Part shown: positions 17,444 through 44,535 of the stretch, in pieces
Position numbering within the stretch: position 1 is the first letter of the stretch
Layout: each line of letters begins with the position of its first letter
Translations under genes and position numbers: made by a program
From: Conexibacter sp.
GTDB taxonomy: Bacteria; Actinomycetota; Thermoleophilia; Solirubrobacterales; Solirubrobacteraceae
NCBI GenBank assembly: GCA_025964325.1
Contig: JAOPZA010000091.1
Coordinates: 1 to 55,395, forward strand
Direction: 5' to 3'
Length of the DNA stretch: 55,395 bases
Notes under the pieces: model-generated
Seen by the model: only the letters and a program-made list of their open reading frames with translations
Told to the model about the DNA's origin: nothing
The model's database searches: none

Positions 17444-18325
17444 GTGACCGTGAACGACGACGCGATCGCGACGCAGTTCGAAGAGCACCGCACGCGACTG
17501 CGGGCGGTGGCCTACCGGATGCTCGGCTCGACCAGCGAGGCCGAGGACGCGGTGCAGGAGGCATGGCTCCGTCTCAACCGCTCGGACGCGGAGACGATCG
17601 ACAACCTGCCGGGCTGGCTGACGACCGTGGTCGCCCGCGTTGCGCTCGACATGCTCAAGGCCCGCAACCGCCGGCGCGAGGACTACGTCGGCAGCTGGTC
17701 GCCCGAGCCGGTCGTGACCGCCGGGACCGACGCGTCCGACCCCGAGCGGGAGGCGCTGATCGCCGACTCCGTCGGCCTCGCCCTGCTCGTCGTGCTCGAG
17801 ACGCTCTCGCCGAAGGAGCGCCTCGCCTTCGTCTTGCACGACATGTTCGCCGTCTCCTTCCAGGAGATCGCGGCGATCGTCGACGGCACGCCCGACGCCG
17901 CCCGCCAGATGGCGAGCCGCGCGCGCCGGCGCGTCCGCGGCGCAGCGACCGTCGACAGCGACCTCCCGCGCCAGCGCGAGGTCGTCGACGCCTTCCTGCG
18001 CGCCGCCCGCGACGGCGACTTCGAAGCACTCGTCTCGGTGCTCGACCCCGACGTCGTGTTCCGGCACGATGGCGGCAGCGGCCGGCGTGCGCAGGGCCCG
18101 ATCGTCGGCGCCGAAGCGGTCGCCCGCAGCGCGCTCGCGCGAGGGCGCCGCTTCGTCGGCCTCGCCGAGCCGGCGGTCGTCAACGGCGCGGCCGGCATCG
18201 TCGTCGCCTCGGGCAACCACGTCATCGGCGTCGCCGGGCTCACCGTCGCGGGCGACCGCATCACCGAGATCGACCTCGTCACCGACCCGGCGAAGCTGCG
18301 CGACGCCCGCCGGCCACGGGCGTGA
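17444..18325 (+). CDS. ECF41-family RNA polymerase sigma factor (SigJ-like)
   Basis: Sigma factor of about 293 residues with regions 2 and 4 (LRAVAYRMLGSTSEAEDAVQEAWLRL near residues 15-45; LSPKERLAFVLHDMFAVSFQEIAAIV near 120-145). A C-terminal SnoaL-like domain carries HDGGSGRR where ECF41 members have a DGGGK-type loop. In this family the tail modulates activity in place of an anti-sigma factor. Starts at GTG 17444 or 17450 are both possible; the AGG at 17439 suits 17450 better. Typical ECF41 partners are COE enzymes, but here the divergent partner is a DHA2 exporter. A consensus-like ECF41 promoter precedes the gene. Confidence 0.9.
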   Translation: MTVNDDAIATQFEEHRTRLRAVAYRMLGSTSEAEDAVQEAWLRLNRSDAETIDNLPGWLTTVVARVALDMLKARNRRREDYVGSWSPEPVVTAGTDASDPEREALIADSVGLALLVVLETLSPKERLAFVLHDMFAVSFQEIAAIVDGTPDAARQMASRARRRVRGAATVDSDLPRQREVVDAFLRAARDGDFEALVSVLDPDVVFRHDGGSGRRAQGPIVGAEAVARSALARGRRFVGLAEPAVVNGAAGIVVASGNHVIGVAGLTVAGDRITEIDLVTDPAKLRDARRPRA

Positions 18326-18354: not shown

Positions 18355-18408
18355 GTCGTAGCAACCGCGGGTTGGTCGCCCACCCGGGGAAGCAGACGCC
18401 GCTACGAC
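18355..18408. terminator. Weak inverted repeat between convergent genes
   Basis: GTCGTAGC at 18355-18362 pairs with GCTACGAC at 18401-18408, the second arm overlapping the MMPL stop codon. The 38-nt spacing makes a poor hairpin; it is listed as the only terminator-like structure in this convergent junction. Confidence 0.2.
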
Positions 18409-20576
18409 CCGCCCGCGTCCGGGCCGACCGCCGACGGAGCCGGCAGTTGCTGATCGTGGCGAACGCCGGCACGTGCGCTGCGGGCCAGCGCGGACGGCCA
18501 CCAGACGCGCCGGTCGAGCTCGATCACGAGCGCGGGCACGAGGATGGTGCGCACGAGCAGGGTGTCCAGCAGGACGCCGAAGGCGATCACGAACCCGAGC
18601 TCGGTGAACCCGATCAGCGGCAACGAGGCCAGCGCCGCGAACGTGCCGGCCAGGACGATGCCGGCCGAGGTGATCACCGGGCCGGTCATCGCGAGGCCGC
18701 GGATCACCCCGCGCCGGGTGCCGAGGCCCAGCGCCTCCTCGCGCACGCGAGCCATCAGGAAGATGTTGTAGTCGACGCCGAGGGCGACGAGGAAGAGGAA
18801 TGTGAACAGCACCAGCGAGGGATCCTCGCCCGGATAGCCGAACGCGTGCCCGAACAGGAACGCCCCCGTGCCGAGCGCAGCGCCGTAGGAGAGCAGGACG
18901 GTGGCGATCAGCAGCACCGGCGCGACGAGCGCGCGCAGCATCAGTCCGAGGACGGCGAAGACGACGAGCAGGATCATCGGCACGATCACCTTCGTGTCGC
19001 GTGTCGCCGCGGCCCGCTGGTCGACCTCCTGCGCGGTCGGGCCGCCGACCAGCGTGCCGCTGCCGCCGGCCGCCTTGGCGGCGGTGCGCAGCGGCGCGAT
19101 CACGTCGAAGGCCGACTGGCTCGAGGGGTTGGCGGTCAGCGTGGCGGTGAAGACGGAGCTGGCCGTGCCGTGCTGCACGGGACCGACGGCTGCCACGCCC
19201 GGCGCCCGCGCGACCGCTGCCTCGACCGCCGCGACGGGCCGCCCGCGTGGGACGACGACCTGCGCGGGCGCGCTCATGCCCGCCGGATAGTGGGCGGCGA
19301 TCGTGTGCTGGCCGGCGACCGACTCGACGTTCCCGCGAAACGAGTTGCCGCTCGTCAGACCCGTGTCGAGCGACAGCACACCGAGGCACATGACGCTCAG
19401 AGCCGCCGTCGCGATCAGCGCAATCGAGCGGTGGCCGCGATCGACGCGGCCGGCGATCGCCGTCCACCGCCGGACCCCGCGCTCGTCGGCCGACTCGCCC
19501 GTGCACTCGGGTACGAACGGCCAGAAGATCCGGCGACCGCAGATCGCCAGCAGCGCCGGCAGCAGCGTCAGCGCGCTCAGCAACGACAGCGCGATGCCGG
19601 TCGCGGCGACCGGGCCAAGGCCGCGGGTCCCGTTCGCGCGGGCGGCCAGCAGGCAGAACAGCGCGAGGATCACCGTGCAGGCGCTGGCGGCGATCACGGG
19701 CCCGGCAAGACCGAGCGCCGCGCGCATCGCGTCATGGTGGTCCCTGTGGCGGCGAAGCTCCTCGCGGTAGCGGGAGACGAGCAGCAGCGCGTAGTCGGTC
19801 CCCGCGCCGAACACGAGCACGGTGAGGATGCCCGCCGCCTCGGCGTTGACCGTGACGCCCGCGAGCGTCAGCAGGTAGCCGAGTCCCTCCGAGCAGACTT
19901 CGGCGACCGCGACGGCGAGCAGCGGGATGAACCAGAAGATCGGGCTGCGGTAGATGATCAAGAGCAGGACGAAGATCAGCGCCACCGTCACCAGCAGCAG
20001 CGTCCCGTTGACGCTGCTGAACACCTGTTCCGCGTCGTAGGAGGAACCCGCCGCGCCGGACACGGCGACCTGGAGGCCGGGCGGTGCGCGGTCGTGGACG
20101 ACGTGCTTGATCTTCTGGACTGCGGCGTCGAGCGCCCGCTGGCTGTTGCGCAGCCGCAGTCCGAAGACGAGCAGGGCGGCCTGCCCGTCGTGCGAGGGCG
20201 CGGCCCCCGTGGCCTGCACGCCGTCGCGCGGAAGCTCCGCGTTCAAGGTCTCGCGAGCAGCGACGACAGTCCGGCGATCCGCGGCGCGCAGGCCTCCGGC
20301 GCGGTGGAAGACGACGACCGCCGGGGTCAGCTCGTCCCGCCCCGTGATCTGCTTGACCTGTGCGAGCGCCTTCGAGGACTCGGCGTTGCCCGGCAGGTAG
20401 GAGGCCGGGTCGTTGTCCTGCGCGTCGTGGAACCTCGTCGCCACCGAGCCCGCGACGGCGGCGACGCCCAGCCAGGCGAGGGCAACGATCCACTTGCCGC
20501 GCCGACCGGTGACGAGCGCGAACAGCCGGCGCGTCCATGCCAGGCCGCCGCGCGGGCGCTCGGCGGGAGCGGTCAT
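18402..20576 (-). CDS. MMPL/RND-family lipid transporter
   Basis: Membrane protein of 724 residues with the two-fold MMPL layout: an N-terminal helix (WIVALAWLGVAAVAGSVA), a periplasmic-side loop domain, a first five-helix block, a second loop, and a second block ending near the C-terminus. Typical motifs include FGAGTDYALLLVSRYREEL and a counterpart, ALGVDYNIFLMARVREEA. MMPL proteins use proton motive force to export lipids or lipid-linked products. The ATG at 20574-20576 overlaps the esterase stop as ATGA, so it is translated as the last gene of the acyl-AMP ligase/PKS operon. It is shorter than mycobacterial MmpL3 (about 940 residues) and lacks its long C-terminal tail. Export of the PKS product is inferred from the operon. 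Confidence 0.88.
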   Translation of the reverse strand: MTAPAERPRGGLAWTRRLFALVTGRRGKWIVALAWLGVAAVAGSVATRFHDAQDNDPASYLPGNAESSKALAQVKQITGRDELTPAVVVFHRAGGLRAADRRTVVAARETLNAELPRDGVQATGAAPSHDGQAALLVFGLRLRNSQRALDAAVQKIKHVVHDRAPPGLQVAVSGAAGSSYDAEQVFSSVNGTLLLVTVALIFVLLLIIYRSPIFWFIPLLAVAVAEVCSEGLGYLLTLAGVTVNAEAAGILTVLVFGAGTDYALLLVSRYREELRRHRDHHDAMRAALGLAGPVIAASACTVILALFCLLAARANGTRGLGPVAATGIALSLLSALTLLPALLAICGRRIFWPFVPECTGESADERGVRRWTAIAGRVDRGHRSIALIATAALSVMCLGVLSLDTGLTSGNSFRGNVESVAGQHTIAAHYPAGMSAPAQVVVPRGRPVAAVEAAVARAPGVAAVGPVQHGTASSVFTATLTANPSSQSAFDVIAPLRTAAKAAGGSGTLVGGPTAQEVDQRAAATRDTKVIVPMILLVVFAVLGLMLRALVAPVLLIATVLLSYGAALGTGAFLFGHAFGYPGEDPSLVLFTFLFLVALGVDYNIFLMARVREEALGLGTRRGVIRGLAMTGPVITSAGIVLAGTFAALASLPLIGFTELGFVIAFGVLLDTLLVRTILVPALVIELDRRVWWPSALARSARAGVRHDQQLPAPSAVGPDAGGS

Positions 20577-21472
20577 GCGCAGCCCAACGCAGTCACCAGG
20601 AACGGCCACGAGCGCTCCAGCTCACGTCGCCAGGTCGGCCATTCGTGCGCGCCGTGCCCGCGGCTCACCGTCGCGGGGATGCCGAGCGCCGCCAGACGGA
20701 TCGCCAGGCTCTCGGTCGTGGGAGCGACCCAGCGTTCGAGCAGGCCGCTGCCCGGTGGCACGTCATCGGTGGGCGGCGGCCGTCCGTCGGCGCACGAGAG
20801 GTAGAGGGCGGTCCCGCGCAGCCGCTCGGCGAGGTGATAGGGGTCGTTCGCGAGCCAGCGACCGCGGTCGCGCCGCGGCGAGCCCCACAGCGCGTGTCGC
20901 TGCTCGCGCTCGCGCAGCAGCATCGCGGCGATGAACGCCGGCATGCCGCGGCGCGTGATGTGCAGCAGGCCGCTGTAGGACGCGGCCGCGGCGAACATGC
21001 CCGGTCGCTTCGCGGCGTAGACGATCGCGCCGTAGCCGCCCATCGAGACGCCGGCGATCACGCGCGTCGAGCTGGCGCGATACCGGGACTCGAGCAGGTC
21101 CGGGATCTCGTCGAGGTGAAAGCCCTCCCAGCGCGGACGCGAGCCGGTCGCGTCCGGCTGATGCCAGTCGGTGTAGAACCCGACCGCGCCGGCCTCCGGC
21201 AGGACGACGAGCGCATCCAGCGCGTCGCTGCGCGCGACGAGCGCCGCCTCGCGCGTCCATGACGACGGGCCGTCGTCGGCGCCGTGGAGCAGCATGAGCA
21301 GCGGCCAGCGTCTCGACGACGTCGTCGAGAACCCGCGCGGCGTGAGCAGCAGCAGGGAGGCGGGGCGTCCCAGCGCAGGCGAGCGGATCGTGATCTCGCG
21401 CAGGCGCTCGCCGCGAGCGACGTCGCCGAGCACGTCGAGGCCCACCCCGCCGACCCCCGCTGCCGTCGTCAC
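20573..21472 (-). CDS. PF00756 esterase, Ag85/mycolyltransferase-like
   Basis: Alpha/beta-hydrolase of 299 residues in the Esterase (PF00756) superfamily that includes S-formylglutathione hydrolase and the mycobacterial antigen 85 mycolyltransferases. The start GTG 21472 overlaps the preceding MFS stop (GTGA). The nucleophile is Ser143 in AGVSMGGYG. Several segments mimic Ag85: GFYTDWHQP, PRWEGFHLDEIPDLL, SYSGLL after the nucleophile, and a catalytic-His region HEWPTW comparable to HSWEYW. No signal peptide is visible, unlike secreted Ag85, so it may act inside the cell or be a thioesterase/transferase working on the PKS product before export. It lies between an exporter and an MMPL transporter with ATGA/GTGA coupling on both sides. 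Confidence 0.82.
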   Translation of the reverse strand: MTTAAGVGGVGLDVLGDVARGERLREITIRSPALGRPASLLLLTPRGFSTTSSRRWPLLMLLHGADDGPSSWTREAALVARSDALDALVVLPEAGAVGFYTDWHQPDATGSRPRWEGFHLDEIPDLLESRYRASSTRVIAGVSMGGYGAIVYAAKRPGMFAAAASYSGLLHITRRGMPAFIAAMLLREREQRHALWGSPRRDRGRWLANDPYHLAERLRGTALYLSCADGRPPPTDDVPPGSGLLERWVAPTTESLAIRLAALGIPATVSRGHGAHEWPTWRRELERSWPFLVTALGCA

Positions 21473-22848
21473 GGCTGGATCCTCTCCGGCGCTCCGGCAC
21501 GGAGCAGCAGCCCGAGCGGCGCGGCGAGCGCGATCAGCGCCGCCGACAGCAGGAACGCGGTCTGCATCCCCGTGGTGAACGCGAGGTGGCTCGCCGTCCG
21601 GATCGCCTCGCCGAGCTGCTCGGAGCTGCCGCGCGGCAGGGGCGCGCGACCCTCGGCGACGAGGTCGTGCGCGCGCGCGACCGCAGCGGCGACGGGCCGC
21701 GAGACACCGGCCTCGCGCAGCCGGGCGCCGAGCACGTCGCCGACGCGGACCGACACCACGACGCCGATCACCGCGACGCCGAGGACGCCGCCGATCTGGC
21801 TGGCGGCCTGCTGGACGGCCGACGCGGTCCCGGCGAGATCCGCGGCGTTGTCGTCGACGATCGTGCTGGTCGCGGCGATCACCCACGCACCGGTGCCGAG
21901 TCCGAGCAGCATCGCGGGCGACGCGACACCCCAATATCCGCTCCCCACCGAGACCTGGGCGAGGCCGACGAGCCCGATCGCGACCGCCACCATGCCGATC
22001 ACGACCGGCCAGCGCGGCCCGATGCGCTCGGTCAGCAGCCCTCCGACCAGCGCTCCGATCACGACCGCCATCGTCGGCGCCAGCAGCCACGCGCCCGCCG
22101 CGCTCGGCGTCAACCCGTGGACGTTCTGGAGATAGAGGGTCAGCAGGAACAGCAGCCCGAACACCGCGAAGGAGCTCATCGCGACGAGCACCGCGCCGAC
22201 GCGCGTCGCCCGCTGGCCGAGCAGCGTGCGCAGCGGTCGCGGCGACGGGCGGGCGCGCGACTCGCCGACGGCGACGCGGACGAGCGCCACGGCGAGCACG
22301 GCGACCGGGACGTTGACGAGGAACACCGCCGGCCAGCCGAAGCCCTGCACGACGAACCCCGCGAAGACGGGACCGAGCCCGATCGCCAGCGCGTTGACGG
22401 CTCCCCAGACGCCGAGGACCATGCCGAGCCGCTCGCGCGGGAAGGCCGTGCTCAGCAGCGCGAGCGCGGTCGGTTGCAGCAACGCGGCGAACAGGCCCTG
22501 CCCGGCCCGGAAGGCGACGAGCTCGCCGACGCCCGCGGACAAGCTGATCCCCAGCGAGCACGCCCCGAACCCGAGCGCGCCGACGACGAACGTCGCCCGC
22601 CGGCCGACCCGATCGGCGAGCCGTCCGGCCGGGAGGATGCACACGGCCAGCGTCACGAGGTAGACGTTGGCGATCAGCGTGAGGTCGGCGAGCGATGCAT
22701 CGGTCGAGCGCGCGATCCACGGCGCGGCGATCGTGATCGCGGTGCCGTCGAGCCCGACCATCATGCCGCCGAGGCACACGGCCGCCAGCAGCAGGCCCGG
22801 CCGCGCCGTGGTGTCGCGCTCGGCATGCGAGCGCCCTGCGCGAGTCAT
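21469..22848 (-). CDS. MFS exporter, DHA2 family, in the acyl-AMP ligase/PKS operon
   Basis: Transporter of 459 residues with a DHA2-like first helix (GMMVGLDGTAITIAAPWI) and motif-A loop GRLADRVGRRATF. Its ATG at 22848 overlaps the stop of a 30-codon leader ORF (ATGA), and its own stop overlaps the esterase start (GTGA). The first twelve residues (MTRAGRSHAERD) are repeated in that leader because of a 38-bp direct repeat. It is probably the inner-membrane exporter or flippase for the product of the operon, or a self-resistance pump. Confidence 0.88.
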   Translation of the reverse strand: MTRAGRSHAERDTTARPGLLLAAVCLGGMMVGLDGTAITIAAPWIARSTDASLADLTLIANVYLVTLAVCILPAGRLADRVGRRATFVVGALGFGACSLGISLSAGVGELVAFRAGQGLFAALLQPTALALLSTAFPRERLGMVLGVWGAVNALAIGLGPVFAGFVVQGFGWPAVFLVNVPVAVLAVALVRVAVGESRARPSPRPLRTLLGQRATRVGAVLVAMSSFAVFGLLFLLTLYLQNVHGLTPSAAGAWLLAPTMAVVIGALVGGLLTERIGPRWPVVIGMVAVAIGLVGLAQVSVGSGYWGVASPAMLLGLGTGAWVIAATSTIVDDNAADLAGTASAVQQAASQIGGVLGVAVIGVVVSVRVGDVLGARLREAGVSRPVAAAVARAHDLVAEGRAPLPRGSSEQLGEAIRTASHLAFTTGMQTAFLLSAALIALAAPLGLLLRAGAPERIQP

Positions 22849-22940
22849 GCCACGAGCCCCGTCGGGGTGTCGCGCGCCGCGCGAACGAGCCCCTGGGCGA
22901 GTTCGCGCTCGGCATGCGAGCGCCCTGCGCGAGTCATGCC
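22814..22940. repeat. 38-bp perfect direct repeat around the MFS start
   Basis: Bases 22814-22851 are repeated exactly at 22903-22940 (offset 89 bp). The match continues for five more bases with one mismatch. Each copy contains a CAT (ATG on the minus strand) and the first twelve codons of the MFS gene. The 51 bp between the copies are not repeated. Offset 89 is not a multiple of three, so the copies are read in different frames. Confidence 0.9.
22845..22937 (-). CDS. 30-codon leader ORF linking PPTase to the MFS gene
   Basis: The ATG at 22935-22937 overlaps the PPTase stop (ATGA). The frame encodes about 30 residues starting MTRAGRSHAERE, then LAQGLVRAARDTPTG, and ends LVA with TGA overlapping the MFS start (ATGA). 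It exists only because a duplicated copy of the MFS N-terminus lies in front of the real gene. It is probably non-functional as a protein but keeps ribosomes coupled through the gap. It could also act as a leader that tunes exporter translation. Confidence 0.5.
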   Translation of the reverse strand: MTRAGRSHAERELAQGLVRAARDTPTGLVA

Positions 22941-23647
22941 GCGAGGAGGGCGCCGCCGTCGTGGGCGGTGCACTCGAGCTGCTCTGCGAGGGTCGCCAGC
23001 GAGGCGGCGTAGCCCGACGGGGCGTCGAGGTCGTAGAGGTGGACGGACGTGGACGGTCGTCCCGCTCCCGACCAGCCCACGAGCGCGGGAGCCCTCTCGG
23101 GCGCCGTCACCGCGATCCGCAGCGGCGCGATCGCGAGGCCGTCGCCGGTCGCCTTCAGGACGGCTTCCTTGCGCGTCCAGTAGCGGCAGAACCCCCACGG
23201 ACGCGCCGCGGACGGCATCGCCGTGAACGCCTGCTGCTCGGTCGCGCAGAGGACCGACGCGACGAGCGACGCCTCCGGCGCGGTCGCGTCGACGCACTCG
23301 ACGTCCACGCCGAGCGGCACCGCCCGGCTGATCGCCACGACGATGCACGCGCCCGAGTGCGAGATCGAGAACTGGAGCTCCGATGCGGTGTCGCCGAAGC
23401 GCGGCTTCTCGTGCGCCTCGAGCTTGGCGGCATAGCGGACCGCGCGCGGGGCGATCGCGACGTGGTGGGCGGCGACGATCCGCGTCAGCGCGTGCGCGAC
23501 GAGGAAGCGCGCTCGGTCCGCGGCCCGCAGGAAGCCGCTGTGCCGGCGCCGCTCGTCCTCGTCGAGCAGGTCGAGCAGATGCTCGTCGGCCGCGCTCGTC
23601 GACGCCCACCAGAGCTGACACGAGCGTGCGTGCAGTCGCGGGATCAC
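22934..23647 (-). CDS. 4'-phosphopantetheinyl transferase, Sfp type
   Basis: This enzyme transfers the phosphopantetheine arm of CoA to carrier-protein serines, activating the two intact ACPs of the neighbouring PKS. It has 237 residues from GTG 23645-23647, five bases after the PKS stop. The Sfp-type signatures are LEAHEKPRF, FSISHSGACIVVAIS, LGVDVECVD with the Mg-binding acidic residues near residues 110-115, and the WTRKEAVLKATGDGL block. The Trp-Lys-Glu-Lys motif is complete, so it looks active. It belongs to the operon running from the acyl-AMP ligase to MMPL, and its stop overlaps the leader ORF start. Confidence 0.92.
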   Translation of the reverse strand: MIPRLHARSCQLWWASTSAADEHLLDLLDEDERRRHSGFLRAADRARFLVAHALTRIVAAHHVAIAPRAVRYAAKLEAHEKPRFGDTASELQFSISHSGACIVVAISRAVPLGVDVECVDATAPEASLVASVLCATEQQAFTAMPSAARPWGFCRYWTRKEAVLKATGDGLAIAPLRIAVTAPERAPALVGWSGAGRPSTSVHLYDLDAPSGYAASLATLAEQLECTAHDGGALLAA

Positions 23648-23652
23648 AAACG

Positions 23653-26600
23653 CTAGGCGGCGGCGCGAACGAGCCCCGGCAGCAGCTCGTTGAGGCGGGC
23701 GGCGAGGGCGTCGACGTGGGGCGGATCGAGCACCGACAGGTGGTGTCCGGGGACGGTGACGATCTCGAGCTGCTCGCCGCACACCGCATCCCAGCCGCGC
23801 GCGGGATCGCGGCGGTCGAAGCGCGGATCGCGCATGCCGTCGGTCTGCGCGTCGCGCGCGCTGTAGAGGACGACCGGCCCGTCGATGCGGCCCGGGCGAT
23901 AGCGATCGAGCGCACGCACGTCGAGGTACGACGTGCGCTGGTGCTCGATGATCGCCGCGCCCGCGACCGGGTCGATCAGCCCGGCCGCGAGGATCGTCTC
24001 GATCAGCAGGTCGGTCTGCGCCTCGTCGTCGAGCCGGGCCATCCGCTCGTACGGGAGCGCGAGCGGCTTGCCGTAGCTGCTCTCGAGGAAGTCCGCGAAG
24101 CGCTGGAACCGGCGCTCGAGCACCTGCAGCTCCGACGTCTCGGGGGGGTCGGGCAGCGGCAGGATCGTGTCGATCATCGCCAGCAGCTCGATCCGCTCGC
24201 CGGCAGACTGCAGGCGCCGCGCGGTCTCGTAGGCGAGCGCCCCGCCGAACGACCAGCCCGCGAGCAGGTACGGACCGGTCGACTGCGTCTTGCGGAGCAG
24301 CTCGACGTAGCGCTCGGCGCGGTGCTCGACCGTGAACACGTCGCTGAGCCGGTCGAGGCCCCACACGGTGAGGCCGGGATCCAGCTGCTCGACCAGCTGC
24401 CGGTAGACGAGCGTGTCGCCGCCGCCGGGATGGAACATGAACAGCGACGTCGCCGCCCCGTCTCCCTCGCGCAGCAGACGCAGCGGCGAGCGCGACGCCG
24501 GGTCCGGCTCGCGCACCAGCGCGGCCTGGCGCTCGATCGTCGGATTGGCCAGCAGCTGATCGGCGGAGACCAGGCGGCCGCTGCGGCGGGAGAGCAGCTC
24601 GCTCACGCGGTCTGCGGCCGCCGCGTCGCGGTCCTGTTCGTCGCAGCTGTCGGTCACGCCGAAGTCCGCGCGCCCGAGGACCTCCTCCCACGCCGCGGCG
24701 ACCAGGCGCTCGCCGGCGTCCCGCGGCGCCACCCGAACGCGGCGAACGGGCTCGTGGGCGGCGGCGGTGGGCGCCGGCGCGGACAGGTCGAGCGCCTCGC
24801 AGAGCCACGTCGCGACGTCGTCGATGCTCGCGCCGCGGAGCATCAGCGAGGGCGGCAGCAGGCGATCGAAGTCATGCTGCAGCGCGTTGCGAATCCGCAT
24901 CGCCAGGAGCGAGTCGAGGCCGAGCGTCGTGAGCGGGGCGTCAGCGTCGAGACGCCCGGGTTCGACACCGAGCACTGCCGCGACGCGCTCGTCGACCCGC
25001 GCCCGGATGCGCGCCGGCGCCTGGGCGGGATCGAGGGCCGCGACACCCGGCCACGCGCTCCCCGTCTGCCTGCCCGAGCGCCCGGCGGAGCCGACGATGC
25101 GCGAGAGCAGTGGGATCTCGGCGAGGTCGGGAAACGCGTCGGTCAGCTCGTCGGCGTCGAGCCTGAGCACCCCGGCGGCGGGGATCCGGGCGGCCAGCAG
25201 CGACTCGAGCGCCTCGAGGCCCTCCGTCGGCGTGATCGGGCTGACGGCGTCGGCGCTGCGCTGCGCTGCCTGGCCGACCTGTGACCAGGTCCCCCAGTTG
25301 ATCGTGGTCGCGACCATGCCCTGCGCCCGCCGCCACGCGGCGAGCGCGTCGAGGTAGGCGTTCGCCGCTGCGTACGCGGCCTGTCCGGGCGAGCCGATCA
25401 GCGCCGCCGCCGAGGAGAAGCCGACCCACCAGTCGAGCTCGAGGCCGGCGGTGGCGGCCGACAGGCGCCACGCCCCCACGGCCTTCGCCGACCAGACGCG
25501 CTGCAGGCTCTCGGCGTCCAGACGCGACGCGACGCGATCCTCGAACGCGGCGGCCGCGTGGATCACCCCTCGCAGCGTGGCGCCCGGGGCGGCGCAGGCC
25601 GCGATTGCCCGCTCGGCGACGCCCGCGTGCGCGATGTCGCCGCCGACGACGACGACCTCCGTGCCGAGCTCGCGCAGCGCGGCGAGCGCCAGCTCCGCAC
25701 GTGGCCCCGGCGCGGACCGGCCGTTGAGCACCACGCGCGCGGCGCCGCTCTCCGCCAGCCAGCGCGCGAGCACGAGGCCGAGCCCACCGAGACCGCCGCT
25801 GACGAGGTAGGCGCCGTCGGCGCGAACGGTGCGGGCGGCTTCGGTGCTCAGCTCGCTCGCGCTCGGGCGCACGAGCCGCGCGACGTGGCGGCGGCCGGCT
25901 CGCCACGCGACCTCGTCTTCGGCGTCGGTCGATCCGAGCTCGCTCAGCAGGTCGTCGATGCCTCCGCCGTGGTCGAGATCGACCCACGTCGGCTGAAGCT
26001 CCGGATGCTCGAAGGCGAGCACCCGGACGAGTCCCCGCAGCGCGGCGGACGGCGCGTCGGGCCGATCGCCGTCGGCGACGGCGGCGGCGCCGGTGGTGGC
26101 GAAGTACAGCCGCGTGCGGATCGCGCTGCCGGGCGGCCGCTCACTCAGCGCGCGGACGATCCCGGCGCCCGCGAGCACGTGCGCGGCGCCGCGCAGCGGC
26201 GCCTGCTCCGGGTCTTCGTCGGACGGTGCGGGGGCGATGAACGCCACGACGCCGTCGAGCGCGTGGTCGGCGCGCAGGATCTGCTCCGCTGCGGCGCCCC
26301 ACGCGGCACGAGCCTCGGCGCCGCGGGACCGCAGGCCGTCGGCGAGCGCGCCGGCACGCGGGTCCGACTGCGCGCCGACGACGAGCCAGCGGCCGTGCGC
26401 GGTCGGCACGCGGGGCGCCTTGACGGCGTGCCACTCGAGCCTCATGAGCTTGTCGGGCAGCGCCATCGGCAGCTCCGTGGCGGAGACGCGGCGAAGCGTC
26501 AGCGCGTCGAGCTGGACCCGCACCCGGCCCTCGTCGTCGAGCAGCTGGAGCGTCGTCGTCAGGTCGGGGCTGGCGGGGCCCATGGGCGCCCGGGGGAAGA

Positions 26601-29600
26601 GCCGGGCGAGGACGACGCCGTCCAGGTCCCCGCGCCAGCGCACCTCGCCGACGGAGCGGGGCAGCCAAGCGTCGCGGTCGGCCGGCCCGAGCGACTCGAC
26701 GAGCCGATCGATCGCCCGCTCGAGGACCTGGGCGCTCGAGCGCGCCGCTTCCTCGGCCGGGTGCGCTGGCGCGACCACGAACTCGATCGCGCCGTCGAGC
26801 GCCGCGGGCGACGCGGGCTCGAGCTCGGCGGCGGTCTCGACCGTGGCGGACAGGTGCTGGCGCCACGCGCCGCGGCCGATCCGGGAGTGCACGGCGAACC
26901 GGCCGGTGTGCGGCGTCGAGAGCTGGATGCTCGTGCTCAGCGTGCAGCGATCGCCGAGCGCGCGCGGCTCGTGCAGCACGAGGTCGCGGATCACGATCTC
27001 CTCGTCGGGCCGCAGGACCTCGGTCGCGGCCGCGCGGGCGGTCTCGAGCCAGGTGGTGAGCGTGACGAAGCGATCGCCGCCGGCGTTGCCGGGATCGACC
27101 GGATCGAGCTCGACCTTCCATGTGGGACGGGACATGCCGGGCAGCTCGATGCGATCGCCGAGCAACCGGTGCGCGGCGGCGGGGACCCGCCGCGGCGACG
27201 GCTCGAGCCAGTGGCGGACATGGCGCCATCTCGTCGTCGGCAGGTCGATCAGGCGGGCGCCGGCCGACGCGATCTCCGGCCGGGCGCCGCCGTGGAGCGC
27301 CAGGGCGGTCAGCTGGGCGTGGAAGTGGGCGCTCTCGTCCTCGCAGCGACGGCCGGTCTGCACGAGGACCGGCTGCTGCAGGCCGCCATCGCGCGCGCTG
27401 TCGACTACGGCATGTGACAGCAGCGGATGGGGTGAGATCTCGACGAAGCTCGCGTGCCCGTCGACGGCAGCCGCGGCGACCGCCTGCGCGAACCGGACCG
27501 GGCGGCGGATGTTCGCCGCCCAGTAGTCGGCGTCGAAGACGGGGACCGCGCGCGGGTCGTCGAGCACCGTGCTGTAGAGCGGCGTGTGCGGCTCGCGCGG
27601 GACGAGCGCGCGCAGCCCGTCGGCGAGCGCGCCGACCACGGGATCGACGAGCCTGCAGTGGCCGGCGACGACCGACTTGATCTGCTTGGCCAGCCGCCCG
27701 CTGCGCTCGACGGCGGCGACGAGCTCGGCGATCTGCGCGGGCGCGCCGGCGACCGCGACCTGCGTCGGCGCGTTGAAGGCGGCGATCTCGACCGCCGGGT
27801 AGTCGCGCAGCATCGGCGCGAGCTCGTCGGGCGAGAGCTCGAGCAGCGCCATCGCCCCGGTCCCCGTCAGCGTCGCCAGCAGTCGCGAGCGCAGCGTGAC
27901 GACGCGCGCGCCGTCCGCTGCCGAGAGCCCGCCGGACGCGACGGCGGCGGCGACCTCCCCGAGCGAGTGACCGACGATCGCGGCGGGCTCCTGCCCCCGC
28001 GCTCGCAGCAGCCGCGACAGGGCGACCTGCACGGCGAACAGCACCGGCTGCAGGCGCTCCATCGCCGTCAGCTCCTGACCGCGTTCGAGCTCCTCGCAGA
28101 CGGAGAAGCCGGCTTCGCGCTGGATCAGCCCGTCGAGCTCCCTCAGCGCCGCGGCGAAGGCCGGCTCGTCGCGCATCAGGCGCAGCCCCATGCCCGCCCA
28201 TTGCGAGCCCTGTCCGGAGAACACCCATACCGGAGGGGCGTCGAGGCGCTGGGCGCCGGCCTCGACGAGGCTCGGGGCGCGACCACCTTCGGCGCAGGTC
28301 CGCAGGCCGGCGATCAGCGAGGCCCGGTCGCGCGCGACGACGGCCGCGCGGGCACGGCCCGACAGGCGCCGGGCGAGCGTGTGCTCCACGTCGCACAGAC
28401 GCGCGTTCGCGCCGGGACCCTCCAGCCATCCGGCGAGCTCCTCGGCCTGGTCGCGCACGCGCGAGGCGTCCGGGCCGGCAAGCAGGAAACGGCCGATGCG
28501 GTCCCCCTCCGCGGGGAGCTCCGCAGGCCGTGCGGCCGGAGGCTGCTCGACGACGACGTGGGCGTTCGTGCCGCCGAAGCCGAACGCCGACACGCCCGCC
28601 CGCGCCGGGCGATCGGCGGCCGGCCAGTCGGTCGCGCGGTCGACGACCGCGAGTCCGAGGGACGCGAAGTCGATGTGCGGGTGGCCGTCGCTGTAGTGCA
28701 GGTTCGCGGGGATGCGTCGGTGGCCGATCGAGAGCACCAGCTTGATCAGCCCGACGATGCCCGCGGCGGCTTCCAGGTGCCCGAAGTTGCTCTTCGCCGA
28801 GCCGATCAGGAGCGGCGTGCGCCCGCGGCGGCCCCCGCCGAGCGCGGCGCTGAGCGCGCGCGCCTCGATCGGGTCGCCGAGCAGCGTTCCCGTGCCGTGC
28901 GCCTCGACGTAGTCGACGTCGCCGGGGTCGACCTGCGCCGCGCCGTAGGCGAGGCGCAGCAGCTCCTCCTGCGCCTCGACGTTGGGCGCCGTGATGCCGT
29001 TGGAGTGTCCGTCCTGGTTGATCGCCGAGCCGCGCAGCACCGCGAAGATGCGATCGTCGTCCGCCAGCGCGTCCGACAGCCGCTTGAGCACGACGACGCC
29101 CGCTCCCTCCGCCCGCACGATGCCGTCGGCGCTCGCCGAGAACGGGCGACAGCGACCGGTCTGCGAGATCACGCCCATCTCATGGAAGGCCGCGGTCACG
29201 GCGGGGCCCAGCAGGAGGTTCGTCCCGGCGGCGATGACGAGGTCGCTCTCGCCGGTCATGAGGCTCTGCATGCCGAGGTGCACGGCCACGAGCGACGACG
29301 AGCAGGCGGTGTCGACGGCGACGCTCGCGCCCCGCAGATCGAGCGCGTAGGAGAGGCGGTTGGCGGCCAGGCTCAGCGCGCCACCCGTGCCGCTCCACGC
29401 GTCCACGCGCGAGAGCTCGGACAGCGAGCGTTGACCGTACTCACCGGCGCTGACGCCGACGAACACCCCGGTGCGGCTGCCACGCAGCGACTCGGGGGAG
29501 ATCCCCGCGTGCTCGAGGGCCTCCCATCCGACCTCGAGGACCATGCGCTGCTGTGGATCCATCCGCACGGCCTCCCGCGGGCTGATCGCGAAGAACGCGG

Positions 29601-30093
29601 CGTCGAAGCCGGCGATGTCGTCGAGGAACCCGCCCGCCCGCGTCGTGCGCTCGAGCACCTCGGCGTCGGCCGCCGACTCGCTCCGGGGCCAGCGCTTCGC
29701 GGGAAGCGCGCCGACCGCGTCACCGCCGCGCTCCAGCAGGCGCCAGTAGTCCTCGGGCCCGCTGATGTCACCGGGCAGCCGGCAGCCGAGCCCGACGACC
29801 GCGACGGGCTCCCGCTCCAGCGTCTTCGGCGCCCGCGTCGGCGCAGGACGCTTCGCTTCGCCCAACAGCGCCGCGGCGATCCGCTCGATTGTCGGGTGCT
29901 CCCACAGCAGGGTGCTCGGCACCGAGCGCTCGAGCAGGTCCTCGAGCCGCCCGGCGAGCTCGACGGCGTCCCGCGACGAGAAGCCGTAGTCGACGAGAGC
30001 CCGATCGACCTCCACCTCCTCGGGCGCGACACCACATCGTTCGCCGACGAGCGCGCCCAACCAGCGCTCGAGCTCTGCGACCGACATCCTCAC
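23653..30093 (-). CDS. Pks13-like polyketide synthase ACP-KS-AT-DH*-KR-ACP-ACP*-TE
   Basis: Type I PKS, about 2146 residues from GTG 30091-30093 (GTGA overlap with the acyl-AMP ligase) or 2144 from ATG 30087. Numbering from the ATG: ACP1 at 1-80 with GFSSRD (Ser38); KS about 92-515 with DTACSSS (Cys262), EAHGTGT and NFGHLEAA; AT about 610-880 with GHSLGE (Ser708) and an ambiguous VAGH substrate motif; a DH-like region about 975-1230 lacking HxxxGxxxxP (DRFVTLTTWLE instead), so probably inactive; KR about 1415-1590 with GGLGGLG and a Ser-Tyr-Asn set (FSSAA, AAYAAAN); ACP2 with GLDSLL (Ser1726); a degenerate third carrier about 1800-1862 without its serine; TE with GWSFGG (Ser1946). One extension and reduction of a FAAL-loaded acyl chain is the simplest reading. 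Confidence 0.92.
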   Translation of the reverse strand: MRMSVAELERWLGALVGERCGVAPEEVEVDRALVDYGFSSRDAVELAGRLEDLLERSVPSTLLWEHPTIERIAAALLGEAKRPAPTRAPKTLEREPVAVVGLGCRLPGDISGPEDYWRLLERGGDAVGALPAKRWPRSESAADAEVLERTTRAGGFLDDIAGFDAAFFAISPREAVRMDPQQRMVLEVGWEALEHAGISPESLRGSRTGVFVGVSAGEYGQRSLSELSRVDAWSGTGGALSLAANRLSYALDLRGASVAVDTACSSSLVAVHLGMQSLMTGESDLVIAAGTNLLLGPAVTAAFHEMGVISQTGRCRPFSASADGIVRAEGAGVVVLKRLSDALADDDRIFAVLRGSAINQDGHSNGITAPNVEAQEELLRLAYGAAQVDPGDVDYVEAHGTGTLLGDPIEARALSAALGGGRRGRTPLLIGSAKSNFGHLEAAAGIVGLIKLVLSIGHRRIPANLHYSDGHPHIDFASLGLAVVDRATDWPAADRPARAGVSAFGFGGTNAHVVVEQPPAARPAELPAEGDRIGRFLLAGPDASRVRDQAEELAGWLEGPGANARLCDVEHTLARRLSGRARAAVVARDRASLIAGLRTCAEGGRAPSLVEAGAQRLDAPPVWVFSGQGSQWAGMGLRLMRDEPAFAAALRELDGLIQREAGFSVCEELERGQELTAMERLQPVLFAVQVALSRLLRARGQEPAAIVGHSLGEVAAAVASGGLSAADGARVVTLRSRLLATLTGTGAMALLELSPDELAPMLRDYPAVEIAAFNAPTQVAVAGAPAQIAELVAAVERSGRLAKQIKSVVAGHCRLVDPVVGALADGLRALVPREPHTPLYSTVLDDPRAVPVFDADYWAANIRRPVRFAQAVAAAAVDGHASFVEISPHPLLSHAVVDSARDGGLQQPVLVQTGRRCEDESAHFHAQLTALALHGGARPEIASAGARLIDLPTTRWRHVRHWLEPSPRRVPAAAHRLLGDRIELPGMSRPTWKVELDPVDPGNAGGDRFVTLTTWLETARAAATEVLRPDEEIVIRDLVLHEPRALGDRCTLSTSIQLSTPHTGRFAVHSRIGRGAWRQHLSATVETAAELEPASPAALDGAIEFVVAPAHPAEEAARSSAQVLERAIDRLVESLGPADRDAWLPRSVGEVRWRGDLDGVVLARLFPRAPMGPASPDLTTTLQLLDDEGRVRVQLDALTLRRVSATELPMALPDKLMRLEWHAVKAPRVPTAHGRWLVVGAQSDPRAGALADGLRSRGAEARAAWGAAAEQILRADHALDGVVAFIAPAPSDEDPEQAPLRGAAHVLAGAGIVRALSERPPGSAIRTRLYFATTGAAAVADGDRPDAPSAALRGLVRVLAFEHPELQPTWVDLDHGGGIDDLLSELGSTDAEDEVAWRAGRRHVARLVRPSASELSTEAARTVRADGAYLVSGGLGGLGLVLARWLAESGAARVVLNGRSAPGPRAELALAALRELGTEVVVVGGDIAHAGVAERAIAACAAPGATLRGVIHAAAAFEDRVASRLDAESLQRVWSAKAVGAWRLSAATAGLELDWWVGFSSAAALIGSPGQAAYAAANAYLDALAAWRRAQGMVATTINWGTWSQVGQAAQRSADAVSPITPTEGLEALESLLAARIPAAGVLRLDADELTDAFPDLAEIPLLSRIVGSAGRSGRQTGSAWPGVAALDPAQAPARIRARVDERVAAVLGVEPGRLDADAPLTTLGLDSLLAMRIRNALQHDFDRLLPPSLMLRGASIDDVATWLCEALDLSAPAPTAAAHEPVRRVRVAPRDAGERLVAAAWEEVLGRADFGVTDSCDEQDRDAAAADRVSELLSRRSGRLVSADQLLANPTIERQAALVREPDPASRSPLRLLREGDGAATSLFMFHPGGGDTLVYRQLVEQLDPGLTVWGLDRLSDVFTVEHRAERYVELLRKTQSTGPYLLAGWSFGGALAYETARRLQSAGERIELLAMIDTILPLPDPPETSELQVLERRFQRFADFLESSYGKPLALPYERMARLDDEAQTDLLIETILAAGLIDPVAGAAIIEHQRTSYLDVRALDRYRPGRIDGPVVLYSARDAQTDGMRDPRFDRRDPARGWDAVCGEQLEIVTVPGHHLSVLDPPHVDALAARLNELLPGLVRAAA

Positions 30094-31850
30094 GACGCTG
30101 CATCCGCGGTGCGGGCGAGGTAGCGAGCGCGGTTGGCCGCGCGAGCGATCTTGCCGCTCGACGTCCGCAGCAGCTTCTCGCCCTTCAGGATCTGGACGTC
30201 GCGGAGCTTGAGATCGTGGGCGGCGGCGACCGCGCGGCGAACGGCGAGCTTGATCTCCAACGCGCTCACGTCGGCCGCGCCGGCGCCGCGCGCGCGCTCC
30301 ATCACCACGACGATCGCCTCGCCCGCGTCCGTCGGGATGCCCAGGGCCGCGACGCGTCCGGCCTGCACCGCGGGGTGGGCCTCCTGCACGGTCTGCTCGA
30401 TGTCCTGCGGATAGTGGTTCTTGCCGTCGATGATGATCAGGTCCTTGAGGCGCCCGGTGATGTAGAGCTCGCCCTCGCAGCTCACGCCGAGGTCGCCGGT
30501 GCGCAGCCAGCCGGCCACGGGCGCCCCGTCCTCGCCGCCGACCAGCCGGCCGTTGAACACCTCTTCGCTGCGCGCGGGCTGGCCCCAGTAGCTGGTCGCG
30601 ACATTGGGACCGTGCACCCAGACCTCGCCGACCTCGCCGTCGGGCAGGGCGGTGCGGTCGGCGGGATCGGCGATGCAGACATGCTGGCCGGCGGGCTTGC
30701 CCGCCGACACGAGCGCGATCGCGTCGACGTCGTCGCGCGCCGTGACGGCGCGCCCCGCCGTCAGCTCCGAGCGCGTGAAGCGCGCGATCGTCGGGCCAGC
30801 CGCGTCGGTCGCGCTGACGAACACCGTCGCCTCGGCCAGGCCGTACGACGGGCGGTGAGCGTTCGGCGCGAACCCATGCGGGCCGAAGGCCTCCCGGAAA
30901 CGCTCCACCGTGCGCGGACGCACCGGCTCGGAGCCGTTGATCGCGACGCGCACGCCGGACAGGTCGAGTCTCGCGCGATCCTCCGCCCGGACGCGGTCGA
31001 CGGCGTAGTCGAAGGCGAAGTTCGGCGCCGCCGTCATCACGTGCGGATGGGCCGCCAGCATCTCGAGCCAGCCGAGCGGGCGCCGGATGAAGTCGAACGG
31101 GGTCGAGAAGACCGACCGCGCGCCGAGCCCGACGGGGAGCCCCGCCAGCAGCACGAGCCCCATGTCGTGGAAGAACGGGATCCAGCCGACGAACGTCGAG
31201 TGCTCGCCGAGGTCCAAGGCCGCTGCCAGCTGCCGCACGTTGGTGGCCACGGCCTCGTGGGTGATGACCGCGCCGGCGGGCGCGCCCGTCGACCCGGAGG
31301 TGTACTGCAGATAGGCGGGCGCAGCGAGGTCGATCTCCGGCAGTCGGAAGGCCCGCGCCGCGTCGAGGTCGATGCCGTCGACGGCGATCACGTCGGCGGG
31401 CCGCGGGACCCGCGGGTCGTCGAGCAGCTGATCCAGCGACGCGCGCGTGGCCTCCGCCGTGAGCCAGACGGTCGCCTCGCAGTCGGCGAGCGCGCCCGTC
31501 AGGCGATCGGCGTGCGAGCTCACTTCCGGGGCGAACAACGGCACCGCGATCGCGCCTGACGCAAGCGCGCCGAAGAACGCCACCGGATAGCTGAGATCCT
31601 GCGGACACAGCACCGCGACCCGCGCCGAGGTGTCGGCGACCTCCCTGATCCTCGCCGCGACCGCGGCGACGCGCAGGTACAGCTCCGACCAGGTGAGCGT
31701 CTGGGGGACGCCGGCGCGGTCCGCGCTGTAGTCGACGAACGTGAACGCGGGCTCGTCGAGCGTCGACCGGGCCACCAGCGACGTCACCAACGACTCGACC
31801 GCAAGGCGCGCGGTCGCGTCACTCACCGAGTCCAACGTCGCACGTGTCAT
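30090..31850 (-). CDS. Fatty acyl-AMP ligase (FAAL, FadD32-like)
   Basis: Activates a fatty acid as acyl-adenylate and transfers it to ACP1 of the adjacent PKS instead of to CoA. It has 586 residues from ATG 31850; a GTG at 31901 would add 17. Visible adenylation motifs: YLQYTSGSTGAPAGAVITH, GWIPFFHDMGLV, INGSEPVRPRTV, YGLAEATVFVS, GWLRTGDLGV and RLKDLIIIDGKNHYPQDIE, the last with the FAAL-type NHYPQDIE. The set matches FadD32/FadD26-type FAALs rather than acyl-CoA ligases. The GTGA overlap with the PKS makes the pairing unambiguous. It is the first gene of the operon. Confidence 0.93.
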   Translation of the reverse strand: MTRATLDSVSDATARLAVESLVTSLVARSTLDEPAFTFVDYSADRAGVPQTLTWSELYLRVAAVAARIREVADTSARVAVLCPQDLSYPVAFFGALASGAIAVPLFAPEVSSHADRLTGALADCEATVWLTAEATRASLDQLLDDPRVPRPADVIAVDGIDLDAARAFRLPEIDLAAPAYLQYTSGSTGAPAGAVITHEAVATNVRQLAAALDLGEHSTFVGWIPFFHDMGLVLLAGLPVGLGARSVFSTPFDFIRRPLGWLEMLAAHPHVMTAAPNFAFDYAVDRVRAEDRARLDLSGVRVAINGSEPVRPRTVERFREAFGPHGFAPNAHRPSYGLAEATVFVSATDAAGPTIARFTRSELTAGRAVTARDDVDAIALVSAGKPAGQHVCIADPADRTALPDGEVGEVWVHGPNVATSYWGQPARSEEVFNGRLVGGEDGAPVAGWLRTGDLGVSCEGELYITGRLKDLIIIDGKNHYPQDIEQTVQEAHPAVQAGRVAALGIPTDAGEAIVVVMERARGAGAADVSALEIKLAVRRAVAAAHDLKLRDVQILKGEKLLRTSSGKIARAANRARYLARTADAAS

Positions 31851-43443: not shown

Positions 43444-44535
43444 ATGCGCAGACTCCTGATTCCCACACTCGCCGCGCTGCTCGCCGCGGCACTCACGGCC
43501 GGCTTCGCGATGGCCAACCGCCACGACGGACCCCGCGGCGGCGGTGACGGCCGCGGCGACAGCCGCCACCAGGCCTACGCGATCGGGCTGTGGGGCGACG
43601 CGCCCTACTCCGACACGCAGGCGACCGTCGGCGTGCCGAACCTGATCGCCGACATGAACAGCCAGTCGCTCGCGTTCACCGCCCACGACGGCGACCTCAA
43701 GAGCGGCTCGAGCCAGTGCACCGACGCCGTCTACACGCAGGCACTCGCGTTCCTCAACTCGCTCGAGGCACCCGCCGTCTTCACCCCCGGCGACAACGAC
43801 TGGACCGACTGCGACCGCGGCCCCTACAACTCGCTCGAGCGGCTCGACCACGAGCGCCAGCTGCTCTTCAACAGCTCCTCCACGCTCGGACAGCACCGCC
43901 TGCGCCAGGAGGTCCAGCAGACCCCGAGATGCCTCGGCGTGAGCGGCGCCGTGCCGTGCGTGGAGAACCGCCGCTGGACCGTCGGCGGCGTCACCTACGC
44001 GACGCTCAACATCCAGGGCTCCTGCAACAACCTCTGCGACACCGCTCCCGATCCGGCCGAGTACGCCGCGCGCAACCAGGCCGACATCGCCTGGATGCAG
44101 CAGACCTTCGACGCAGCGAAGCACGACGGGTCCGCCGCGGTGATGTTCATCTCGCAGGCCGATCCCGGCTGGGACGGCTCCGACGCGACGCGCGCGCCGA
44201 CGCGCGATCCGAGAACGCTGGTGGAGAGCGACGGCCAGCCCGACGGCTACCACGACTTCCTCAGCGCACTGCGCGACCAGACGGTCGCGTTCCGCAAGCC
44301 GGTCGCGTACGTGAACGGCGACTCGCACTACCTCCGCATCGACAAGCCGTTCCAGAACGCGCAGGGCCAGCGGCTCGAGAACTTCACCCGCGTCGAGACG
44401 TTCGGCGATCACCAGGAGAACGGCGACAACGACGTCCACTGGCTGAAGGTCTCGGTCGACCCGAACAGCCGCGAGGTGTTCGCCTACCAGCCGCAGCTCG
44501 TCCCCGCCAACCGCACGGCCGTGCCCGCGCAGTAG
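43444..44535 (+). CDS. Secreted metallophosphoesterase-like protein
   Basis: Exported protein of 363 residues. The N-terminus MRRLLIPTLAALLAAALTAG is a signal peptide. The mature part has GLWGDAPYS, FTAHDGDLKSGSSQC, and FTPGDNDWTDC, matching the metal-ligand pattern of calcineurin-like phosphoesterases (GDND with Asp/Asn ligands). VNGDSHYLRIDKPF near the end supplies the usual His ligand. The start is set by the signal peptide; an upstream ATG at 43414 gives an unnatural N-terminus. It probably cleaves a phosphoester outside the cell. A 15-bp hairpin follows the stop. Confidence 0.78.
   Translation: MRRLLIPTLAALLAAALTAGFAMANRHDGPRGGGDGRGDSRHQAYAIGLWGDAPYSDTQATVGVPNLIADMNSQSLAFTAHDGDLKSGSSQCTDAVYTQALAFLNSLEAPAVFTPGDNDWTDCDRGPYNSLERLDHERQLLFNSSSTLGQHRLRQEVQQTPRCLGVSGAVPCVENRRWTVGGVTYATLNIQGSCNNLCDTAPDPAEYAARNQADIAWMQQTFDAAKHDGSAAVMFISQADPGWDGSDATRAPTRDPRTLVESDGQPDGYHDFLSALRDQTVAFRKPVAYVNGDSHYLRIDKPFQNAQGQRLENFTRVETFGDHQENGDNDVHWLKVSVDPNSREVFAYQPQLVPANRTAVPAQ

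Follow-up and report, generated by a model that had tools for sequence, protein, structure and literature searches.

A 55,395-nucleotide stretch of the genome of Conexibacter sp. (contig JAOPZA010000091.1, hereafter the window) carries on its minus strand, at 18402-31826, six consecutive intact genes, FAAL-PKS-PPTase-MFS-EST-MMPL. They encode a fatty acyl-AMP ligase (FAAL), a type I polyketide synthase (PKS), a phosphopantetheinyl transferase (PPTase), a major facilitator pump (MFS), an esterase (EST) related to Antigen 85 (Ag85) and an MMPL transporter. The host is a soil actinobacterium from a group not known for mycolic acids. We propose, with a probability of about 55% and on the strength of sequence comparison, that these genes form a Pks13-related operon for lipid assembly and export, in which a single FAAL-primed condensation would give an alpha-branched beta-hydroxy chain that is transferred in the cytosol and then exported. 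The genes were called with a codon model and their families assigned with Pfam and NCBIfam profile searches; these agree with an earlier sequence-only reading, which had named the same six genes in this order.

From the gene content, domain order, kept and lost motifs, kinship, conserved clustering and conserved absence of a signal peptide we infer the catalytic steps, their substrates, the acceptor and the export. The PPTase would arm both functional acyl carrier protein (ACP) domains of the synthase, and the FAAL would convert a fatty acid to acyl-AMP, which is then loaded onto the first of them, ACP1. The acyltransferase (AT) would charge ACP2 with a C2-substituted malonyl unit, namely ethylmalonyl or a longer alkylmalonyl, methylmalonyl also being possible. 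One condensation by the ketosynthase (KS) would be followed by reduction of the ketone by the ketoreductase (KR), and since the dehydratase (DH) is dead, the chain would remain an alpha-branched beta-hydroxy thioester, retaining the motif of mycolic acids; the product may thus resemble a mycolate. Because the thioesterase (TE) is of the Pks13 type, release would most likely be to a hydroxyl acceptor, e.g. a sugar or polyol. The Ag85-fold enzyme, being of a type that transfers acyl groups and devoid of a signal peptide, would hand the acyl group on to another acceptor within the cytosol; the presence of both an MMPL transporter and an MFS pump suggests that they export the ester.

The polyketide synthase

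We read the motifs of the PKS from alignments with colinear homologues, the larger of which had 34 rows. Pfam recognizes ACP, KS, AT, KR, ACP and TE domains along the protein. The ACP-first, Pks13-like architecture with a TE and a built-in KR had been described by the sequence-only reading, which overlooked two further elements, a degenerate DH and a third carrier-like domain without its serine. No aligned member has the serine motif in this third domain, which has a homologous counterpart ahead of the TE in Pks13. For the C-terminus (Ser-less carrier plus TE) the best PDB match is Pks13 (E 5e-58), with EHQRTSYLD common to both; likewise, Pks13 is the best PDB match of ACP1-KS. In the DH of the window the HxxxGxxxxP stretch is deleted and the second motif, HPALLDxCLQ, is gone. 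The Sciscionella PKS has likewise lost the DH motif, which is kept in two Amycolatopsis (L058, L062), in Saccharopolyspora flava (L075) and in the other Solirubrobacteraceae genus.

The synthase resembles the Pks13/FadD32 system in its FAAL partner, N-terminal ACP motif, KS, Ser-less carrier before the TE, TE type and AT motif of the xAGH/xASH kind. It departs from the Pks13 layout, ACP-KS-AT-ACP-TE without KR or DH, in carrying a KR and a dead DH, no AccD4 gene adjoins it, and its score against the Pks13 model NF040607 (1305.9 bits) lies below the equivalog cut-off of 2100. With the mycobacterial lipid synthases of the MAS/Pks2 type it shares the order KS-AT-DH-KR-ACP and similarity of the KS-AT block, whereas it has an N-terminal ACP, a C-terminal TE and a dead DH; Pfam matched no enoylreductase (ER) domain in it, so the ER and full reduction of that type are lacking. 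In AT domains HAFH denotes malonyl and YASH methylmalonyl specificity (PMC6164871, PMC3943440), and the VPGH of polyoxypeptin PlyU has been assigned a bulky alkylmalonyl extender (PMC3943440). The window AT bears VAGH at this place, the Nocardia homologues of Pks13 GAGH and that of Jongsikchunia GASH. We take VAGH in place of HAFH, with the precedent of PlyU, as support for a C2-substituted extender. Pks13 joins two long chains by way of a carboxyacyl-CoA extender, and on such chemistry in the window PKS the AT motif and the carboxylases of sister clusters bear indirectly.

The esterase

A sequence search of the PDB with the esterase returned Corynebacterium PS1 at the top (E 7e-36), then Cmt1 and Ag85C, while S-formylglutathione hydrolases scored 4e-7 or worse. 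We modelled the protein with AlphaFold2 (50 sequences, pLDDT 95.3) and compared folds with VIA-align; Z was 36.3 for Ag85A, 35.4 for MytA and 30.8, with lower identity, for the best S-formylglutathione hydrolase. S143, E246 and H276 align to the Ag85 triad and are near-invariant across 50 relatives, so that the model has both the fold and the Ser-Glu-His triad of Antigen 85 and the mycoloyltransferases. An S-formylglutathione hydrolase was rejected on these comparisons and on the TIGR02821 score (26.5 bits, cut-off 281.7). The kinship to FadD32, Pks13 and Ag85 advanced earlier is thereby upheld by the best PDB matches and the esterase fold.

PS1/MytA, Cmt1/MytC and Ag85A-C share with the window esterase fold, triad, the FYTDW and HxWPxW motifs and the best sequence matches, but the latter forms part of its own clade and lacks a signal peptide. 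Enzymes of the Antigen 85 kind transfer mycolyl groups to trehalose or to arabinogalactan. None of the nearby in-frame starts gives a usable hydrophobic N-terminus such as the export of Ag85 demands, which rules out a signal peptide hidden behind an upstream start. The lack, already noted in the sequence-only reading, extends to all ten members of the esterase clade when every in-frame start is scanned (0/10 with a signal peptide; the sole intermediate value was 1.36, in Kibdelosporangium), indicating a conserved trait and not a mis-annotation. PKS- or FAAL-linked esterases outside the clade do have signal peptides; three unlinked Streptomyces/Actinomadura esterases scored low too. At this similarity the window genome holds no second Ag85-type protein. 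By sequence and model, then, the enzyme is a member of the mycoloyltransferase-like PF00756 family and is predicted to be intracellular.

The clade-wide lack of the signal peptide, together with the MMPL and MFS genes kept by most members, would also suit a cytosolic Ag85-like enzyme that joins two PKS products into an estolide or diester, or that acylates a glycosylated intermediate before export to yield a complex glycolipid. A UGT-type glycosyltransferase in the Nonomuraea/Planobispora clusters is consistent with the latter; the window operon contains none, and we consider either product quite improbable here.

In Nocardia yamanashiensis we observed five Ag85-family genes in tandem just ahead of FadD32-Pks13 (L093:4871-11914).

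Occurrence of the cluster

We scanned the esterase alignment across 84,980 species genomes. The closest relatives were in Amycolatopsis, Kibdelosporangium, Crossiella and Sciscionella. All of these carry FAAL (52-57%), PKS (46-49%), EST (47-55%) and MFS, and most also MMPL; looser versions of the cluster occur in other Pseudonocardiales, in Streptosporangiales and in a second Solirubrobacteraceae genus. Searching for the gene order in Solirubrobacterales and other Actinobacteria thus recovered the same core set in four Pseudonocardiaceae genera, and FAAL-PKS-EST-MFS in three genomes of genus g11, of the window's own family. One g11 contig is JAEMQS010000049.1 (genome G046, contig C248), deposited as Solirubrobacteraceae SupBloom_Metag_040, which fits the Thermoleophilia-type genome recognized from sequence alone. 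Esterase and PKS trees concur in placing the window in a starred clade with the four genera (99*, 100*), apart from the g11 clusters. As its closest relatives belong to Pseudonocardiaceae, the operon is by these comparisons not a Thermoleophilia speciality, and since PKS homologues in many genomes are colinear and have FAAL and esterase genes adjacent, the arrangement exceeds chance.

Within the order, an esterase search at 1e-50 found only 5 of 232 genomes: that of the window, the three of g11 and G042. Both the esterase (0/6) and the FAAL (0/6) are missing from the other six genomes of the window's genus, and the operon is thus no core trait of the envelope. Genes beside it have DNA matches in each of the six, with identities reaching 82%, so the contig belongs to the genus; this excluded contamination or a mis-binned contig. 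Horizontal transfer between Pseudonocardiaceae and the window lineage would be the simplest reading.

In G042 the esterase is an orphan (L030:13430-14350), Ag85-like, devoid of a signal peptide and 54% identical to that of the window, with no PKS or FAAL gene in the 20 kb searched around it. Beside the g11 clusters (L033, L034, L035) we noted another FAAL gene, one resembling AcpS and one for a secreted-looking protein of 519-524 aa.

Supply of the extender unit

The window operon includes no carboxylase, as had been noted before, no AccD4-like gene such as adjoins the mycolate locus and no other gene for extender supply. The earlier description of the system as self-contained is not supported for this reason; short-chain-type carboxylases and one crotonyl-CoA carboxylase/reductase (Ccr) are encoded elsewhere in the genome. 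Sister clusters are equipped differently. A Ccr homologue lies near the PKS gene in eight Nonomuraea/Streptosporangium/Planobispora clusters (two were scored, at 518 and 533 bits, cut-off 378.6), most of which have the UGT-type glycosyltransferase as well. In six Pseudonocardiales clusters (L075, L085, L079, L076, L077, L067) a carboxyltransferase gene stands beside PKS or EST; one of these enzymes, searched against the PDB, gave MccB (5INF) as best match with PccB narrowly behind. MccB is a medium-chain acyl-CoA carboxylase with Gly at position 161, where Phe is universal in enzymes acting on <=4 carbons (PMC5187497). In each of the six cluster enzymes this position is occupied by Gly or Ala, which makes them candidates for the synthesis of medium- or long-chain alkylmalonyl-CoA. 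Homologues of the MccB and Ccr routes to alkylmalonyl-CoA, as in stambomycin and reveromycin, are thus found in sister clusters, by pocket residue or as Ccr, and are absent from the window operon.

The PccB-like proteins of the window genome (C203, C47) have Phe at the position of MccB Gly161 and hence look like short-chain enzymes. Its one Ccr above the cut-off (contig C166) sits among unrelated genes, with a mutase-like gene not far off, and could provide ethylmalonyl-CoA or an alkyl analogue in trans. Matches to KS, AT and carboxyltransferase on C229, considered as a second cluster, turned out to be the FAS-II operon.

Several observations weigh against the proposed lipid. As a single block, KS-AT is matched better by MAS than by Pks13 in the PDB, and the AT of the Crossiella homologue has VASH, the same as MAS, a methylmalonyl enzyme; the branch may accordingly be short. 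The DH looks intact in the close relatives L058 and L062, so a beta-hydroxy product would not be clade-wide. Extender supply is missing from the operon, and PF00756 comprises plain esterases too; the window enzyme may hydrolyse its substrate and not transfer an acyl group. The likeness to MAS, the Phe-type PccB paralogues and the DHA2 pump, of a kind typical for secondary-metabolite clusters, are all consistent with an ordinary small polyketide or lipid cluster; the FAAL-primed PKS would add one methylmalonyl unit, and the secondary metabolite so made would be a 3-hydroxy fatty acid with a short branch, the esterase serving as a clean-up hydrolase and the pumps for efflux. We hold this to be less likely, because the C-terminal TE and Ser-less carrier resemble Pks13 in particular, the esterase, its triad intact, resembles mycoloyltransferases in particular and clusters with PKS genes in many genomes, and sister clusters carry a Ccr or an MccB-like carboxylase.

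Relation to the mycolate pathway

The best NCBIfam matches of the FAAL are FAAL models and its best PDB matches acyl-CoA synthase/FadD32 (E 1e-130 to 1e-125), yet it scores 520.7 bits against the FadD32 model NF038339, below the equivalog cut-off of 975, and is a FAAL but not FadD32 itself. The transporter passes PF03176 amply (371.2 bits, cut-off 20.5) and shares family and two Asp-Tyr pairs with MmpL3 and other MMPL proteins; it differs from MmpL3 in its 724 aa and in reaching only 73 bits against NF052608, whose domain cut-off is 1400. As judged by these profiles, FAAL, PKS and MMPL fall outside the FadD32, Pks13 and MmpL3 families and inside the wider FAAL, type I PKS and MMPL families. 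The gene products would nevertheless act much as FadD32, Pks13, Ag85 and MmpL do.

A set of FAAL, Pks13-like, Ag85-like and MMPL proteins with mycolate enzymes as best matches is what a true mycolate pathway, producing trehalose mycolates and a mycomembrane-like layer, would display. Such a pathway is very improbable here: the equivalog cut-offs are missed widely, the KR is in cis, AccD4 is wanting from the operon, the lone Ag85-type protein at this similarity has no signal peptide, and the six congeneric genomes do without esterase and FAAL. In mycolate synthesis reduction is carried out by a separate enzyme, CmrA (PMC6194230), whereas here it would take place on the synthase. Judged by its predicted gene products, the operon does not qualify as a true mycolate locus.

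How the mycomembrane arose has been called a mystery, and mycolic acid genes are narrowly distributed, in Corynebacteriales (PMC6194230). In open-access full texts (subscription journals and MIBiG lay outside the search) we came across no account of a cluster that pairs Pks13-like condensation with an Ag85-like enzyme in organisms other than mycolate makers, and part of a FAAL review (PMC11837247) lists no product of this kind; as far as we found, the lipids of these clusters are undescribed in that literature. A tentative idea, to which we give somewhat less than an even chance, is that mycolate logic operates here in the opposite topology, the synthase finishing an alpha-alkyl beta-hydroxy acid that an Ag85-type transferase devoid of an export signal esterifies intracellularly before MMPL exports it, across a wide mycolate-free actinobacterial family in which the FadD32-Pks13-AccD4-Ag85 locus probably has its ancestors or sisters. 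The operon bears on the origin of the mycolate pathway: clusters of FAAL, Pks13-like and Ag85-like genes, sometimes with an MccB-like one, in Pseudonocardiales, Streptosporangiales and Solirubrobacteraceae offer concrete outgroups for the mycolate locus, and raise the question whether recruitment of a secondary-lipid cluster gave rise to that locus. The clade whose Ag85-type enzyme is predicted to be cytosolic would reveal how such an enzyme works before export.

Operon layout and neighbouring genes

Coordinates are collected in the table. Gaps separate FAAL from PKS (2 bp), PKS from PPTase (5 bp) and PPTase from MFS (85 bp), and 4-bp overlaps join MFS to EST (GTGA) and EST to MMPL (ATGA). The statement that most junctions overlap in this manner thus holds for two of five. 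An ATG does overlap the PPTase stop (ATGA, 22934-22937) but belongs to a duplicated junction, so that the MFS gene proper begins 85 bp further on. The FAAL has alternative starts at 31850 (ATG) and 31901.

Table. Genes of the operon, domains of its synthase and the junction repeat, in window coordinates.
Feature	Position	Strand	Evidence or remark
FAAL, 578 aa from GTG 31826	30090-31826	-	PF00501 + PF23024
Single-module type I PKS, 2144 aa, ACP-KS-AT-psiDH-KR-ACP-psiACP-TE	23653-30087	-	Pfam/NCBIfam, homologue alignment
ACP1, GFSSRDAV (Pks13: GLSSRDAV)	29866-30063	-	PF00550, alignment to Pks13
KS, DTACSSS intact	28543-29811	-	
AT, GHSLG and VAGH (27658-27669) in place of malonyl HAFH	27319-28230	-	
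Degenerate DH	26428-27171	-	Homologue alignment; weak PF21089 match below cut-off
KR, active-site Ser/Tyr/Asn present	25282-25815	-	PF08659 184 bits, motif alignment
ACP2, LGLDSL	24790-25014	-	
Ser-less third carrier-like domain	24478-24732	-	
Pks13-type TE: GWSFGG, IDTILP, EHQRTSYLD, GHH	23674-24447	-	PDB match, motifs
Sfp-type 4'-phosphopantetheinyl transferase (PPTase), 237 aa	22934-23647	-	PF01648
43-nt direct repeat, 98%, spacing 89	22814-22945		Duplicated PPTase-stop/MFS-start junction, 30-aa mini open reading frame between
DHA2-like MFS exporter, 459 aa	21469-22848	-	PF07690
Ag85/mycoloyltransferase-family enzyme (PF00756 esterase, EST), no signal peptide, triad S143/E246/H276	20573-21472	-	
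MMPL (RND-type) transporter, 724 aa, two Asp-Tyr pairs, one per protein half	18402-20576	-	PF03176

Upstream of the FAAL gene lie about 250 bp free of genes, and a sigma factor gene (17450-18325, plus strand) stands tail-to-tail with the 3' end of the operon. Elsewhere in the window we noted a secreted-looking protein of 363 aa with no Pfam match (43444-44535) and a P-type ATPase of 1628 aa (50387-55273), far longer than usual, with an N-terminal region resembling heavy-metal-associated domains.

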